Origin: Phosphitispora fastidiosa
GTDB lineage: Bacteria > Bacillota > Thermincolia > Thermincolales > UBA2595
NCBI RefSeq assembly: GCF_019008365.1
Contig: NZ_JAHHUL010000004.1
Span: forward strand, 62,001 to 126,000
DNA length: 64,000 nucleotides
Direction of reading: 5' to 3'
Below are positions 5,179 to 22,652 of this stretch, piece after piece (within the stretch, counting starts at the first letter, position 1; the number at the start of each line of letters is the position of its first letter). Both the position numbers and the translations under genes were made by a program. Under the pieces are notes generated by a model. The model had not been told where the DNA came from and did no database searches. It was given only the letters and a program-made list of their open reading frames with translations.

Positions 5179-5379
5179 TTATCTTACGAGGACAACATTG
5201 GCTGCCTGGGGACCGCGGTTGCCTTCGACAATATCAAATTCAACATCCTGCCCCTCTTCCAGTGTTTTAAAACCTTCGGTCTGGATAGCAGAGAAGTGAA
5301 CGAAAACGTCTCCTCCTTCGTTGCTCTCAATAAAACCAAACCCTTTCTCCGGATTGAACCACTTTACTTTTCCTTGCAT
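5179..5379 (-). CDS. Cold-shock protein, CspA family
   Basis: 66-residue single cold-shock domain that binds single-stranded RNA/DNA and acts as an RNA chaperone. RNP1 (KGFGFIE) and RNP2 (VFVHFS) are both intact. GGGAGG lies about 9 bases before ATG 5379. The upstream spacer (5380-5595) is AT-rich and could encode the long leader typical of csp genes, but no defined motif was recognised. Confidence 0.93.
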
Positions 5380-5486
5380 TAATACAGGCCTCCCTTTACC
5401 TTTCAGTTTTTCCTATGCTTATAACTGCTTATAACATCATATAGTATTAACCTAAATGCGCTGAATAATTCTATTTTTTTCTGAAG

Positions 5487-5516
5487 AAATAAAACTTCTT
5501 CAATGAAGTTTTATTT
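5487..5516. repeat. AT-rich inverted repeat in csp upstream spacer
   Basis: A 12-bp perfect stem (5487-5498 with 5505-5516) with loop TTCAAT, between the divergent csp gene and the membrane-protein gene at 5596. It could be a weak terminator, an operator or a leader hairpin. The rest of 5380-5595 shows nothing further that can be named. Confidence 0.4.
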
Positions 5517-5595
5517 ATTAATATTACGGCATCCAGGGAATTAATATTATAAAAGGGTGCGCAATACAAATTAATGGTTTAACGGAGGTTGTCAT

Positions 5596-17142: not shown

Positions 17143-17161
17143 AGCTACTGGAGGGATGGAA

Positions 17162-18580
17162 ATGGGAAAAATGGTTATAAGAATACTGAGAGCCGAAATC
17201 AATAATTTTCAAAATGTAGAACATGGAGCTCTGAGATTTGCTTGCAATCTTAAAGATGACATTTTTGAATCATCCTCTGATATTTTAGGAATTTATGGGC
17301 AGAATGGTTCTGGCAAAACAACCTTTATTCATGCACTCAGCGTACTGGATGCACTTCTTTCCGGAAGAAAACTGCCAAAAGAAACCGTAAATTTTATTAC
17401 CAAAGATAAAGATACTTCTCATTTTTCGTTTGAATTTGGTCTGAATGATGTAAAAAACTTCTATAGAGTGATTTATGATTTCAGTATAACTAAAAGAGAG
17501 AGAGATACATGGGAAGAAGATGATGAAGCTAACACCATTAATCCTGTTATAGTTTCATATGAAAAAATTCGATATTCTTACTTAGAAAATGGCATTTGGA
17601 GTAAACTTCGTACCCTTATTGATTGCAACCTAATTGAGGAAAAGGTTTTTAGACCGGATGCAAGATTGCAAGACTTAACGGGTGGAAGTTCAAAGATAGT
17701 TGACGAATTGCGAGTTGCTAAAAAGCTTGCTATCAAACAATCAACATCCTTTGTTTTTTCAAAAGAAACTCAAAAACAGATTGTACAAAATTGTACCGTT
17801 CAGTCGTATAAACAGATTCTTCGTGCTCTTTACCTTTTCGGACGTTTCGACTTGTATATCATCGGAAATAGAGATTCTGGTTTAATTTCCTTGAACATGG
17901 CAATACCTTTTAGTTTTAGGATGGAAAGAGACAACTCTCTTTCCATGGGCAGTATTTTTATTCGCCTTGATAAACCATCAGTTATACCTGAAGAAATTTA
18001 TATTCTTGTTGGTAAAGTAATTGAGGTAATGAATACTGTTTTATGTGAAATAATACCTGGCTTACAGGTCGGACTGCTCAACATGGGCAAACAAATCATG
18101 CAGGATGGAACAGAAGGCATAAGTGTTGAAATGGTTTCCATAAGAAATGAACGTAAAATTCCGTTACGATATGAGTCCGAAGGCATAAAGAAAATAATTT
18201 CTATTCTGCATATGTTAATTGCGATGCATAATAATCCATCAATGACTTTAGCAATTGATGAGCTTGATTCAGGAATATTTGAATATTTGTTAGGTGAACT
18301 CTTAAAAGTAGTGAGAGATTCTGGAAAAGGGCAACTTATTTTTACTTCCCACAATTTAAGACCTTTAGAAATGCTTCATAAAAGCTCTATTCTTTTCACT
18401 ACTACTAATCCAAACAATCGCTACATTCGATTAACTAATGTAAAAACTAATAACAATTTGAGAGATTTATATTACCATGATCTCATTCTTGGGGGCCAAA
18501 AAGAGAGCATTTATGAGGCAACCAATAGTTTCGCCATTGCCCGTGCCTTAAGAATGGCAGGTGCAAACATTGAAAAATAA
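17162..18580 (+). CDS. AAA/ABC-type ATPase of a two-gene cassette
   Basis: 472 residues, resembling AAA_15/AAA_21 (OLD-like) ATPases: Walker A YGQNGSGKTTF (about 47-57), an ABC-like signature ESEGIKKI, Walker B TLAIDELDSG and a switch His in IFTSHNLRP. About 300 residues between Walker A and the signature form the expected insert. ATG 17162 is chosen since GGAGG (17150-17154) is 7 bases away and too close to ATG 17156. It overlaps the downstream Toprim-like gene by 11 bases, so the products are probably translationally coupled partners. The gene is more AT-rich than its neighbours, suggesting transfer. Similar ATPase/Toprim pairs include anti-phage systems, but the exact type is not established. 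Confidence 0.75.
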   Translation: MGKMVIRILRAEINNFQNVEHGALRFACNLKDDIFESSSDILGIYGQNGSGKTTFIHALSVLDALLSGRKLPKETVNFITKDKDTSHFSFEFGLNDVKNFYRVIYDFSITKRERDTWEEDDEANTINPVIVSYEKIRYSYLENGIWSKLRTLIDCNLIEEKVFRPDARLQDLTGGSSKIVDELRVAKKLAIKQSTSFVFSKETQKQIVQNCTVQSYKQILRALYLFGRFDLYIIGNRDSGLISLNMAIPFSFRMERDNSLSMGSIFIRLDKPSVIPEEIYILVGKVIEVMNTVLCEIIPGLQVGLLNMGKQIMQDGTEGISVEMVSIRNERKIPLRYESEGIKKIISILHMLIAMHNNPSMTLAIDELDSGIFEYLLGELLKVVRDSGKGQLIFTSHNLRPLEMLHKSSILFTTTNPNNRYIRLTNVKTNNNLRDLYYHDLILGGQKESIYEATNSFAIARALRMAGANIEK

Positions 18581-19019
18581 GAAAATCCTTCTTTTCATAG
18601 TGGAAGGTATTACAGATCAAACCTGTCTCGGTTTTGTATTAAGCAAAATTTTGAATAGTAATAAAGTAGAATTTGCACTTATCTATGGCGACATTACCAG
18701 TAAAACCGGCATTGATTCAAACAATATTGCTACAGAGATAGGGGAAATTGTAAAACAATTTAGCGGGAAGATATTTAAGGCTAGCGACTTTATTGAAATT
18801 GTACATTTAGTTGACATGGATGGAGCCTATATTAAATTTCAAATTTTTGTTGATAATGTTGAAGCAATACTACATAGAAACAAGCAAAAATCAGATAAAT
18901 TCGTTTGTGCAGAACATTTTGAAAATAGCTATGGCTGCTCACCCAAACGATTTTTAGATTTTTTAAACACCCCGGAAATTGCAGTTCAAAAACGAGCGAT
19001 TAGGGCGATAAACCCCTAA
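18570..19019 (+). CDS. Toprim-like partner protein
   Basis: 149 residues. ILLFIVEGITDQ gives the conserved Glu and IVHLVDMDGAYI the DxD of a Toprim-type metal site, so a nuclease or nucleotidyl function is inferred. TTG 18570 is preceded by AGGTG inside the end of the ATPase gene. The stop codon lies inside a hairpin that may be its terminator. The protein is short for this class, and a tmRNA-derived repeat begins 77 bases downstream, so 3' truncation by an integration event is possible. Confidence 0.6.
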   Translation: MKNKKILLFIVEGITDQTCLGFVLSKILNSNKVEFALIYGDITSKTGIDSNNIATEIGEIVKQFSGKIFKASDFIEIVHLVDMDGAYIKFQIFVDNVEAILHRNKQKSDKFVCAEHFENSYGCSPKRFLDFLNTPEIAVQKRAIRAINP

Positions 19020-19095: not shown

Positions 19096-19117
19096 TTTGG
19101 TGGAGGTGAGGGGAATC
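19096..19117. repeat. Copy of the tmRNA 3' end (candidate attachment site)
   Basis: 22 bp identical, in the same orientation, to 21631-21652, which is the last 20 bases of the tmRNA including CCA plus two bases beyond. It sits at the start of the pseudouridine synthase gene. Direct repeats of an ssrA 3' end are the usual trace of tyrosine-recombinase integration. No integrase is present in the window. Confidence 0.8.
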
Positions 19118-19129
19118 AGTGAGGAAAAA

Positions 19130-20032
19130 TTGAACAATACACAGCTAACATACACAGCAGGTGCTCTGGATCAGGATACTTTTCTGCGGGACATACTATC
19201 CGTTAAACTTTTATTGTCCCATTCTCTGGTAGTACGGCTTAAGCAACAGAGCAAAATAAAGGTGAACGGGTATCCGTCCTATACCAACTACCGCATCAAC
19301 GCGGGGGATATTATCACCATTGATATAAATTTCACCGAGGAGAGCAAAATTATACCGGAGTCGATTCCTCTGGACATAGTTTACGAAGACATGGACTTCC
19401 TGGTGGTGAATAAGCCCGCGGGTATGTCCACTCACCCATCCCGCCCAGGAGGTACCGGTACCCTGGCTAACGCGGTAACTTATTACTGGCAGAGGTCGGG
19501 AAGAAGCACTCTTTTTCGCCCGATAAACCGCCTGGATAAAGATACTTCAGGGTTGATCCTGATAGGGAATAGCCAGTTTGCACACCAGGGCATATTCAAC
19601 CAGGTAAAGGGCCGCATCATTGAGCGGAGGTATATTGCTTTGGTAGAGGGAACAATGGCAAAAGACAGCGGTCGTATCGACCAACCAATCGCCCGGGAAG
19701 ATGATAAAGGTCGCCGGAGAATAGTCCGTTCAGATGGTTATCCGGCAGTCACCCATTATAAGGTACTTGATATATATCCGGGGTACACCCTGCTATCATT
19801 AAGACTGGAGACCGGTCGCACCCACCAGATAAGGGTGCATCTGAGCTCTCTTGGCCATCCGGTATGCGGTGACCTCCTGTACGGGTATGATTCACCATTA
19901 ATAAATCGACAAGCTCTACATGCCAACAAGCTACGCTTCACCCACCCCCGCAGCGGAAAAGAAGTAATTCTGGATGTTCCATTGGCGGCGGACATCCAGG
20001 CCGCTGTTGACAAGTTAAGCCAGCTCTGTTAA
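19130..20032 (+). CDS. RluA/RluD-family pseudouridine synthase
   Basis: About 300 residues, converting specific uridines of rRNA or tRNA to pseudouridine. An S4-like N-terminal RNA-binding region (FLRDILSVKLLLS, then KVNGYPSYTNYRI) precedes the catalytic domain with the Asp in RLDKDTSGLIL and the conserved ETGRTHQIRVHL. The start is uncertain: TTG 19130 has GAGG 5 bases upstream, but GTG codons at 19100 and 19106 are also in frame inside the tmRNA-derived repeat. The last four codons and stop lie inside a second tmRNA-derived block. Both ends of the gene are thus made of tmRNA sequence. Confidence 0.85.
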   Translation: MNNTQLTYTAGALDQDTFLRDILSVKLLLSHSLVVRLKQQSKIKVNGYPSYTNYRINAGDIITIDINFTEESKIIPESIPLDIVYEDMDFLVVNKPAGMSTHPSRPGGTGTLANAVTYYWQRSGRSTLFRPINRLDKDTSGLILIGNSQFAHQGIFNQVKGRIIERRYIALVEGTMAKDSGRIDQPIAREDDKGRRRIVRSDGYPAVTHYKVLDIYPGYTLLSLRLETGRTHQIRVHLSSLGHPVCGDLLYGYDSPLINRQALHANKLRFTHPRSGKEVILDVPLAADIQAAVDKLSQLC

Positions 20033-20040
20033 ATGACCTC
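20019..20040. repeat. Copy of an internal tmRNA segment
   Basis: 22 bp identical to 21797-21818 inside the tmRNA gene, same orientation, with three further matches after one mismatch. It contains the stop codon of the pseudouridine synthase gene. Confidence 0.8.
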
Positions 20041-20063
20041 TTCTAAAATCATACAGTACTATT

Positions 20064-20399
20064 TCAGTTATTTTTTGGGGCTCTGATAATTTCAATTAAT
20101 TTTACAATTCCCCAAGCTAAGATTGCATACACAATCATGCCAATAACTGTAGCAAGTTCTAAAACTGCCTGAGTCATATTCCCTCTCGTTACACCTGGCC
20201 TGAAAATATTGATAAATGGGGCTAAAAACACCTGTGATACTGAATATATAAATGCTACAAATCCACTCCAGGGATTGGCTCCTAAAAGTTTGAATATAAG
20301 ACGAAAGGCAAACAAGACTTCCAGAACGCCTAAAATATAATAAACTATTTTTTTAGCTTTGATATTTCCTTTCACTGTTTTAACGACATCTTGTTCCAT
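20064..20399 (-). CDS. YggT-family membrane protein
   Basis: 111 residues with three hydrophobic segments (about 18-40, 47-66 and 78-102) and the YggT-like pattern LFAFRLIFKLLGANPWSGFVAFIYSVSQ followed by LAPF, at this length typical of stand-alone family members. Function is unknown. GAGGG lies 7 bases before ATG 20399. It faces the neighbouring genes and sits inside the interval bounded by tmRNA-derived repeats. Confidence 0.75.
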   Translation of the reverse strand: MEQDVVKTVKGNIKAKKIVYYILGVLEVLFAFRLIFKLLGANPWSGFVAFIYSVSQVFLAPFINIFRPGVTRGNMTQAVLELATVIGMIVYAILAWGIVKLIEIIRAPKNN

Positions 20400-20530
20400 T
20401 TACCATCCCTCACTTAACTTTATTCCGTATTATCTTTCCTTTATTAACGTCACATAATACACCTGTAAGTCCTCAGTAAAGGCTAAATAAAAAATTAATT
20501 ACACCAACAATATTTGAAAATCGGAACTAG

Positions 20531-21607
20531 GTGGGAGACCGGTTTATCAATGGTGAAGCCCTTATCCCTATATTGGATAGGCCAATAAATGACAGCTACA
20601 GTTATCTTGCGGAGAAATATGGTATCTTCTTACAACCTTTAAGCAACATTAAAAGTATTACTTTTTACTCGGAAAACAAAGTGGCTACCTTGAGTGGTTA
20701 TTTAGGTTTTCTTAACTCAAGGGGAAGACATTCTCAATCTTTTGAAAACCAACTTTCAAAACAAGTCAAATCAGATATCATCTTTAACTCAAATGTTACA
20801 TATGAACAATTATTAAAAGATTTTACCCATGTAATATTGGCCACAGGTGACGCTGCTTATGCCTCCAAAATCCAGGACTTTAAAGTAGACTTAACAGTGA
20901 CACTCAAAGGCGCTACTGTGGAAGGTAAATTCGACCGTTTTAGCGCGGCAATTTGGTTGGACAATAACCTTGCCCCGAAAGGATACGGGTATTTAATGCC
21001 CTTTTCAGAACGGGAAGCTTCAATCACTATTGGTTATCCAGATTATCCCGAGAACCGGTCAAAAGACATTAACGCTATTTGGGGTAACTTTTATGATAGA
21101 GTATGTACTAACTTAAATCAAAACCTTAAGGTCACCGACAACTTTGAAATTACCAGGTACATAATTGGTCAATGTCAATCCCCGCGTTTAGGAAACACCT
21201 TTTTCGTGGGCAATTGTTTCGGTGCCATTATGCCAGCCTTTGGGTTTGGGCAGTTGCCTGCAATGTTGACAGGGGTCTATGCGGCTTTTGACTTGGTTTG
21301 TAAAGGGAATTACGCTGAGCTGGTCAAACATTTACAAGAAAGCTATAATAATTCGCTGGTTATTCGTCGCTCCATGGAACAATTAGATAACCGCAAGTTA
21401 GATATATTGGTCTCCCTCTTTAATACAAAATTAGCTAACTATATATTTAATAATCAAAAGATAAACCCGTTTAAAACGGCAAGTTATCTCTTAAAACCAC
21501 AAGTTAAAATCAGAGCCGCACTGAATAAAAACTCCAGAATGGTACGTAAGAGGATTAATTCACCCCCGTCGAACCCCTCCTCAAAGAAAAACAAAAACTC
21601 AGGCTAA
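20531..21607 (+). pseudogene. FAD-dependent oxidoreductase, N-terminus missing
   Basis: 358 codons similar to geranylgeranyl-reductase-like flavoproteins: THVILATGDAAYASK, GYGYLMPFSEREASITIGYP and FFVGNCFGAIMPAFGFGQLPA are recognisable. The N-terminal GxGxxG dinucleotide-binding segment (about 40 residues) is absent, and an in-frame TAG directly precedes the GTG at 20531. The last residues (SSKKNKNSG) are encoded by the opposite strand of the tmRNA terminator. Both ends therefore look cut. Confidence 0.75.
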
Positions 21608-21620
21608 GTTAACCTGAGTT
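21596..21620 (-). terminator. tmRNA terminator
   Basis: Stem AACTCAGG/CCTGAGTT (21596-21603 with 21613-21620), followed on the minus strand by TTTTTGTTTTTC, a strong T-run. It starts 12 bases after the tmRNA 3' end and overlaps the end of the oxidoreductase remnant. Confidence 0.85.
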
Positions 21621-21632
21621 AATTTATATATT

Positions 21633-21983
21633 TGGTGGAGGTGAGGGGAATCGAACCCCTGTCCAGAAGAGAACCCACATAAGCTTCTCCGAGCGCAGTC
21701 AGGTAATTTAAATTTCGCTCACTGACCGCCTACCGACAAGCTGTCAGGTCACTATCTCGATAAATCTCGCCTCACCCCTCCGAGAATTGAGGATTGGCCA
21801 GCTCTGTTAAATGACCTCATCTACCTCACACAGAGCACAGAAGTAGAGAGGTTGGGCAGCAATTAAGCTGCTAAAGCGTAATCGTTATTAGCGTTTAAAT
21901 GTTTTCCACCGTGTTAACGGGCTTGTGGGACCCCGGCTCGCTGCCTATGCTTATTCTTCCCCCGTCGAAACCAGTACACCCCC
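21633..21983 (-). ncRNA. ssrA: tmRNA (transfer-messenger RNA)
   Basis: 351 nt. The 5' GGGGGTG pairs with 3' CACCTCC (one G-U pair), followed by ACCA, forming the tRNA-like acceptor. GGTTTCGACGGGG is the conserved 5' region and GGGGTTCGATTCCCC the T-arm. The tag frame GCTAATAACGATTACGC onward encodes ANNDYALAA then TAA, ending in the protease-recognised LAA. It works with SmpB, encoded just upstream, to rescue stalled ribosomes. A segment at 21797-21818 and the 3' end are repeated at 20019 and 19096. Confidence 0.97.
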
Positions 21984-22101: not shown

Positions 22102-22566
22102 CTAGTACTTCTGCCGCTCCCGGAACGCCTTTTCCATTTCCCGCTTAGCATCACGGGCGGCCATATCGTCACGCTTATCATACAGCTTCTTGCCTTTAGC
22201 CAGGGCCAGCTGCACCTTGGCCTTCCCATTTTTGAAATACATCTTTAACGGAACCAGCGTCAGTCCTTTCTCCTGGACGCTGCCAATCAGCTTGCGAATC
22301 TCATGCTTATGCATTAGCAGCTTCCGCGTCCGCAGCGGTTCATGGTTAAACCTGTTACCCTGCTCATATGGGCTGATATGGGCATTATACAAAAATATCT
22401 CCCCATTATCAACCCGGGCAAAGCTGTCTTTGAGGTTGGCCCGCCCTGCCCTGAGGGACTTGACTTCAGTACCGGCTAATACAATTCCGGCCTCATAGGT
22501 CTCCTCTATGTGAAAATCATGGCGGGCTTTGCGGTTATCAGTTATTATTTTGACATTTTCGGCCAT
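22102..22566 (-). CDS. smpB: SsrA-binding protein SmpB
   Basis: 154 residues, normal length. It binds the tRNA-like part of tmRNA and carries it to stalled ribosomes. Seen: [30 protein letters not shown], and the basic C-terminal tail with [12 protein letters not shown] 22566 is preceded by GAGGTGG; the frame is open further upstream, but that extension is not SmpB-like. It lies between rnr and ssrA, the common arrangement. Confidence 0.96.
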
Positions 22567-22601
22567 CACTGCCACCTCAATATAAGTCAATCGTGATAAA
22601 G

Positions 22602-22652
22602 CAACCCTCTTGGACAGAGCAGCTATTGCCACAGCAAGAGGGTAAAGGTTGC
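22602..22652 (-). other. Hairpin in the rnr-smpB spacer
   Basis: AACCCTCTTG pairs with CAAGAGGG plus GTTGC across a small bulge, followed on the minus strand by TTTATC just before the smpB ribosome binding site. It could be a partial terminator or an attenuator of smpB. The rest of the spacer to 22749 is AT-rich with two short CGTATAACGC-like direct repeats. Confidence 0.35.

Follow-up and report, generated by a model that had tools for sequence, protein, structure and literature searches.

The question raised by this locus is how an RluA-family pseudouridine synthase gene (rluA) came to lie between two displaced pieces of ssrA, the gene for transfer-messenger RNA (tmRNA), in Phosphitispora fastidiosa. 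The stretch analysed, called the window throughout, comprises 64,000 nucleotides of contig NZ_JAHHUL010000004.1 (assembly GCF_019008365.1, positions 62,001 to 126,000). A sequence-only reading had noted two 22-bp matches to ssrA at the flanks of rluA and had proposed that a former 3' half of tmRNA was displaced and then received rluA, or that an element brings its own tmRNA 3' half. In our analysis, both matches are probably decayed remnants of displaced ssrA 3' parts, left by repeated insertion of small units, and rluA is cargo. The elements concerned are the following:

21633-21983, minus strand: ssrA (tmRNA gene), complete, tag ANNDYALAA (ARAGORN; Rfam RF00023, 195.1 bits)
20019-20045, minus strand: piece A, tmRNA positions 161-187, identical to 21797-21823 at 26 of 27 nucleotides
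19096-19117, minus strand: piece B, tmRNA positions 332-351 plus 2 nt past the CCA, identical to 21631-21652 at 22 of 22 nucleotides
19130-20032, plus strand: rluA, RluA-family pseudouridine synthase of 300 amino acids (TIGR00005, PF00849)

Both matches are real, and the one previously given as exact over 22 of these 27 nucleotides extends to 26 of 27. Their collinearity with ssrA is likewise borne out: the pieces keep the strand and order of the gene, they bracket rluA, and the spacer between them measures 901 bp (19118-20018) vs 144 bp in ssrA (21653-21796). Searched genome-wide, they have E-values of 3e-5 and 6.9e-4 and are the sole secondary ssrA matches at E<=0.001; the genome thus has an intact ssrA with a same-strand 3' fragment downstream, the signature of a displaced fragment. 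The longest same-strand exact word common to the tmRNA and the window has 22 letters, and in 100 first-order Markov windows used as the chance control the longest had 14 (mean 11.8), which excludes chance similarity. An assembly artefact or chance resemblance is scarcely credible as the explanation. The window's genome (G000) is a draft of 239 contigs, and in draft assemblies taken without reads local misassembly is possible, though several assemblies agree; both junctions lie within a 262-kb contig, and the same kind of structure is present in other assemblies, one of them a single contig.

The case for displacement comes from relatives and is strong. The survey of the class covered 10 genomes, 7 of them with an ssrA match, and six live tmRNAs served as queries against these 7 ssrA loci, with a threshold of E<=0.001. 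Displaced 3' pieces lie downstream of ssrA in four of the seven ssrA-positive genomes, namely the window's genome and three others, referred to as G001, G003 and G005. These amount to 14 places (nine in G005, two in G001, one in G003 and two in the window), all on the ssrA strand and none on the opposite one, and tmRNA positions 1-81 occur in none of them. The former tmRNA 3' part that had been postulated from the window thus has longer counterparts on the same side and strand, including positions 104-351 in G001. The protein encoded by the window's smpB is 99 and 96% identical to those of metagenome-assembled genomes (MAGs) named Thermincola ferriacetica, and judging by the sequences the host of the ssrA insertions would be a Thermincola-type bacterium. 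Two further elements delimit ssrA in the window:

22102-22632, minus strand: smpB, the upstream anchor of the ssrA locus
21596-21620, minus strand: terminator-like hairpin of ssrA, at which homology to the G001 array resumes

The least decayed case is G001. At its locus L035, ssrA (1-351) and a terminator are followed by a multicopper oxidase gene, a second copy of positions 104-351 with a terminator, a flavin-oxidoreductase-like unit and a piece of positions 98-129. The second copy starts one base past the stop codon of the oxidase gene and has a 12-nt internal loss. Its T-stem, GCGGG/CCCGC, is shared with the live ssrA of another relative, G002, whereas AGGGG/CCCCT is found in the live genes of G001 and of the window's genome; sequences from different tmRNA lineages thus come together here. 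A complete ssrA, a gene and a second, diverged 3' part in succession are also what would be expected if an element brings its own 3' half, as had been suggested. In G005, the nine pieces extend over 18 kb and alternate with small gene units, with 0.4-5.7 kb between pieces. The cargo there includes an AMP-binding enzyme, an unassigned 194-aa open reading frame (ORF), a GAF-GGDEF protein, a histidine kinase, a GGDEF-EAL protein and an S-layer-homology protein, as well as three copies, two of them partial, of a unit with a 148-aa ORF. In G003, a 185-aa ORF is followed by positions 84-119 fused to 296-351 with an interruption in the T-loop, and the tag of this piece is of the Thermincola type, unlike the tag of the live G003 gene. 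The longest pieces, the second copy of G001 and piece f6 of G005, span the tag hairpin to the CCA and run on into the terminator. Several shorter pieces resemble, by eye, such a hairpin-to-CCA piece after internal deletion: f2 of G005 consists of positions 111-199 joined to 273-351, and in f9 the hairpin loop is joined straight to a terminator like the one behind f8.

Under the explanation that we favour, a unit with its own tmRNA 3' part would enter ssrA, and the hybrid gene, its 3' end now provided by the unit, would remain functional. The original 3' part and terminator would be displaced downstream, to the far side of the cargo. Repeated insertion would then produce an array, in which pieces such as 161-187 and 332-351 could be what survives internal deletion, and adjacent genes could fuse to the pieces, as the tail and the leader of rluA may have done here. 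Region 19096-20045 is most likely a decaying integration array in which rluA is cargo, either flanked by two remnants or enclosed in a single one, and the locus appears to be a spot where foreign DNA inserts.

The left ends of the pieces point to the place of entry. Eight of the 14 displaced pieces begin at tmRNA positions 82-106; with related pieces collapsed by hand and f3 judged by eye, 7 of 11 left ends fall in 84-113, for which a post hoc test against uniformity gives P of ~8e-6. Pieces f2, f9 and f10 of G005 have a common left arm that reaches to the tag hairpin; there, within the hairpin or immediately past it, f9 and f10 diverge from the arm, and f2 continues in tmRNA. This hairpin, GCTGC-TTAATT-GCAGC, has what we take to be the form of a tyrosine-recombinase core, and it is probably often the site of insertion.

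Several observations weigh against this reading. The left ends do not fall at one nucleotide (82, 94-106, 161, 230-236 and 318-332), so that more than one site or much deletion has to be assumed. No recombinase accompanies the arrays: profiles PF00589 (searched in six genomes) and PF00239 (in four) have no match inside them, and neither a tyrosine integrase nor a resolvase-type recombinase is found on the ssrA contigs of G001, G003 and G005. The ssrA-specific tyrosine integrase that the sequence-only reading proposed to look for was not found either, the nearest tyrosine integrase on the window's contig lying ~46 kb from ssrA and a resolvase-type match 114 kb. With no integrase near ssrA, we infer integration from the anatomy of the locus. 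A phage attachment site containing the tag hairpin was also sought, and only two viral contigs had the exact pattern, both within a phage permuted tmRNA. The distribution is patchy as well. G002, a close relative of the window's genome, has no displaced piece at the survey threshold in the stretch read, nor do G004 and G009 in theirs, and ssrA could be placed in 59 of 80 named smpB loci, in 8 of the 59 partly and in many on a short contig that ends soon after ssrA; 3 of the 59 (L035, L041 and L098) have a downstream repeat. Two matches below the threshold, neither counted among the 14 places, also fail to fit: 22 nt resembling tmRNA positions 12-33, in the orientation of ssrA and located past the second copy in G001 (E 0.045-0.07), and 19 nt in L035 with the opposite orientation (E 0.045). 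The window's locus without rluA was seen in no genome, and the window's own pieces are short and compatible with an origin from one remnant or from two.

Three observations made in these searches stand apart. The permuted tmRNAs of the two viral contigs (IMG/VR L157, 679-1091, and L158, 4554-4966) have the tag ANDQVYALAA and lie among ~20 transfer RNA (tRNA) genes. At the end of L041, a contig from a named MAG, tmRNA positions 1-164 are present again (5371-5534, 98.8%), 4.4 kb beyond the first copy. In G009, a different contig carries an additional tmRNA gene of full length (L131, 1501-1829; RF00023, 144.9 bits), 70% like that of the window.

The scatter of left ends and the lack of a recombinase in the arrays are what would be expected if RecA recombined circles or transforming DNA carrying foreign tmRNA 3' sequence with ssrA, no site-specific enzyme being involved. 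The live ssrA genes are mosaic, and the 148-aa-ORF unit of G005 occurs repeatedly and in part, both of which agree with such an origin; yet the left ends cluster, in the post hoc count given above, near the tag hairpin, and two pieces leave their common arm in or just behind it. We regard homologous recombination as possible, though with some doubt. Another view, in which ssrA anchors an integron-like cassette system and rluA is one cassette, we consider unlikely. Each unit would then comprise a single gene or a small number of them, with a tmRNA 3' half (tag hairpin to CCA plus terminator) starting only a few nucleotides past the stop codon; recombination would take place at this half, which would also be the spare 3' end that preserves tmRNA function at each insertion, and the recombinase would act in trans. 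Integron cassettes are alike in layout, being arrayed genes that are each closely trailed by a structured element. Unlike integrons, for which IntI is the criterion, the arrays here are without a tyrosine recombinase, and their anchor is a live tmRNA gene.

The T-loop offers another starting point for the pieces. In G005 (L138, 4152-4743) and G003 (L140, 1918-2525), ssrA has a T-loop interruption of ~240-260 bp, and the two interruptions are mutually related; one displaced piece in each genome is interrupted in the same way. If these were group I introns, breaks made by a homing endonuclease and faulty repair could have produced the pieces. The G003 interruption is Intron_gpI-like, under the Rfam gathering score, a LAGLIDADG gene follows directly behind the G005 ssrA, and the pieces starting at 318-332 lie near the insertion point. 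Against this, the G005 stretch has no Rfam intron match at E<=0.01, the ssrA genes of the window, G001 and G002 are intron-free, and no relative of the G005 endonuclease was found in G000, G001, G002 or G003. Most left ends, moreover, are far from the T-loop, and an uninterrupted ssrA with displaced pieces in G030 (described below) points to arrays without an intron. We therefore judge the intron explanation very unlikely.

The boundaries of rluA can be fixed by its homologues. The product scores above the curated cut-offs of TIGR00005 (250.1 bits; cut-off 192.7) and PF00849 (115.9 bits; cut-off 26.8), which places it in the RluA family, and is predicted to pseudouridylate ribosomal RNA or tRNA. 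At a protein identity of at least 75%, the gene occurs in four of the 61 genomes searched, the window's genome included, the homologues being 85% (G002), 81% (G005) and 75% (G031) identical. Homology at the DNA level starts at 19118 (G002 and G005) or 19115 (G031) and ends at 20005-20011, which places its edges at or no more than 3 bases from the inner end of piece B and just short of piece A. The start codons of the homologues (TTG in G002 and G005, ATG in G031) align with TTG at 19130 and are preceded by a GTGAGG-like ribosome site, which the window retains:

19118-19129, plus strand: native rluA leader kept from the homologues, with the Shine-Dalgarno-like AGTGAGG

Piece B therefore lies in the 5' leader of rluA and does not supply its start codon. 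About 50 bp upstream of rluA that are common to G002 and G005 are missing in the window. At the other end, piece A, read on the opposite strand, supplies the last codons (SQLC and the stop) except for the first base of the S codon. The earlier claim that both ends of the gene are made of tmRNA sequence thus holds for the last codons and fails for the start region, which is native from the Shine-Dalgarno stretch onward.

The gene has been under constraint, its ratio of nonsynonymous to synonymous substitution rates (dN/dS) being well below 1 (0.13-0.20 in six pairs among four genes). Between G000 and G002, DNA identity is 87.7% for rluA vs 95% for rnr and smpB; between G000 and G005 it is 83.7% vs 68.9% for rnr and 73.4% for smpB. 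With a divergence at odds with that of rnr and smpB, rluA is no simple vertical ortholog and was probably acquired horizontally. No ssrA piece lies near rluA in G002, G005 or G031 within the 17-18 kb examined around it; relatives with the same rluA flanks and no ssrA homology were not seen, the rluA of the relatives sitting in other surroundings. Two candidate sources were rejected. Viral contigs hold no relative of rluA, and the homologues share the gene (G002 and G005 also the ~50 bp upstream) with no common ends of the kind that a mobile unit would have. Separately, G002 has the rluA 3' end (111 bp) and an upstream flank in duplicate (L114, 5860-6057 and 8810-9892): the copies lie ~3-4 kb ahead of those that belong to the complete gene, and IS200/IS605-like ORFs (by eye) occupy the interval; no connection of the 111-bp copy to ssrA was found.

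Next to piece A lies an ORF that bears on whether the window holds one remnant or two:

20064-20399, minus strand: 111-aa ORF, codirectional with ssrA, its stop codon 18 nt before piece A; YggT-like by eye only

This ORF has no match in Pfam, NCBIfam or PADLOC. In the first version of the favoured reading, which is that of the sequence-only reading, a single displaced piece 161-351 had its positions 188-331 replaced by rluA. Pieces A and B stand in the order of the live gene and hardly differ from it, as would be expected of one recent piece, and internal losses occur elsewhere (the G003 piece and f2 of G005); however, no target duplication or inserting element is seen at the edges of rluA, and the succession of pieces of differing extent in G005 means that two remnants need no special insertion. 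We place this version somewhat short of an even chance. In the second version, to which we give about even chances, two successive remnants were heavily deleted, piece A ending the unit of the 111-aa ORF and piece B the unit of rluA, a layout like that of G005, G001 and G030. The nearest upstream ORF is codirectional with ssrA at eight of the 14 places, and all eight, the 111-aa ORF among them, end 0-22 nt before the piece; at the other six the upstream neighbour is reversed or absent. The same adjacency is what speaks for a cassette-like system. In a post hoc comparison, about 11% of the intergenic bases of a background stretch lie no more than 25 nt from a stop codon, which gives the adjacency a P of 1.7e-8 from hand-entered distances and a background of 23 gaps on one contig. 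Against two remnants, rluA opposes ssrA and its start codon is just 12 nt from piece B, whereas other reversed cargo ORFs start 93, 98 and, for a truncated one, ~310 nt from their piece. G003 was considered as a source of a site free of rluA and rejected: there, 12 kb separate the counterpart of the 111-aa ORF from ssrA, and no remnant follows that ORF.

Beyond the class, 119 genomes of the phylum were sampled, up to six candidates being scored per genome. Matches were present in 77, and four further loci were read (G030, G050, G073 and G111). In G030, a single contig with a different tmRNA tag, an uninterrupted ssrA is followed by a 120-aa ORF, a piece of positions 282-364, a 182-aa ORF and a piece of positions 288-363, and each piece is then followed by a terminator-like hairpin (by eye). 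Its tyrosine integrases, searched with the single profile PF00589, are more than 1.6 Mb away. Small-unit arrays thus seem not to be limited to the window's relatives. The distances from ORF to piece in G030 are 65 and 276 nt, so the adjacency to stop codons may be specific to a lineage or a product of deletion bias. By contrast, G111 has a classical 14-kb ssrA island whose distal piece lies 2.1 kb from an integrase. G073 has no displaced piece in the stretch read. G050 departs from the usual layout in that an exact 37-base copy of ssrA 3' sequence precedes the gene by 8.4 kb, in the same orientation (L160, 4034-4070).

The remaining neighbours in the window are as follows:

20531-21607, plus strand: flavin-oxidoreductase-like ORF adjoining ssrA (NCBIfam TIGR02032 weak, far below cut-off)
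17156-19019, plus strand: AAA ATPase (AbiL/AriA-like, PADLOC) overlapping a 152-aa ORF without family match, beyond piece B

The flavin-like unit lies directly behind the ssrA terminator in both G000 and G001, with 95% identity over 1124 bp. Its ORF has no Pfam match, and in the window it lacks the N-terminus present in G001, homology stopping at 20497; with its first residues missing it may be a pseudogene. The missing residues include a GxGxxG-like motif of G001. The 3' end of this ORF (21563-21576) resembles the tmRNA 5' part at 21959-21972 in 13 of 14 nucleotides. The block at 17156-19019 is unmatched in the G002 stretch read, which has helix-turn-helix, IrrE-like and third ORFs at this place; the RecQ/DpdF-like helicase that follows the block in the window also follows these alternative ORFs in G002.

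Displaced 3' parts are an accepted signature of integration into tRNA and tmRNA genes (PMC4383910), and Dehalococcoides provides known examples of tandem ssrA islands (PMC3146451). The likeness to the latter extends to tandem arrays downstream of ssrA, direct repeats of the ssrA 3' end and the proposal of islands without integration genes of their own; unlike here, the repeat has 20 bp and sixteen islands have an integration module including the serine recombinase DsiB (PMC3146451). Islands of the Islander type also restore their target and leave a displaced 3' fragment on the same strand, but the pipeline discards most internal fragments and any candidate that lacks an integrase or is shorter than 2 kb, and most units described here would be filtered out by it (PMC4383910). 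The T-loop interruptions of G003 and G005 are like the tmRNA T-loop group I introns known from the literature (PMC11915505), a separate phenomenon of which the window's ssrA has none. By its anatomy, the window fits the integration-island kind. It differs from the known islands in the length of its relatives' remnants (up to ~250 nt, tag hairpin to CCA), in the gene-sized units and in the arrays without a recombinase. Within the open-access literature, these long remnants and integrase-less units look like a new feature beside the known tandem islands, though integration at the tag hairpin may already be in print.

The tmRNA gene is a known favoured target of islands, and the arrays described here suggest that gene-sized units without an integrase of their own collect there too. 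The tag hairpin may be their attachment site. Island finders that demand an integrase and at least 2 kb would miss such arrays. Should the cassette reading prove true, gene arrays would have a second mode of assembly in addition to integrons, based on an important RNA gene whose integrity every insertion preserves.

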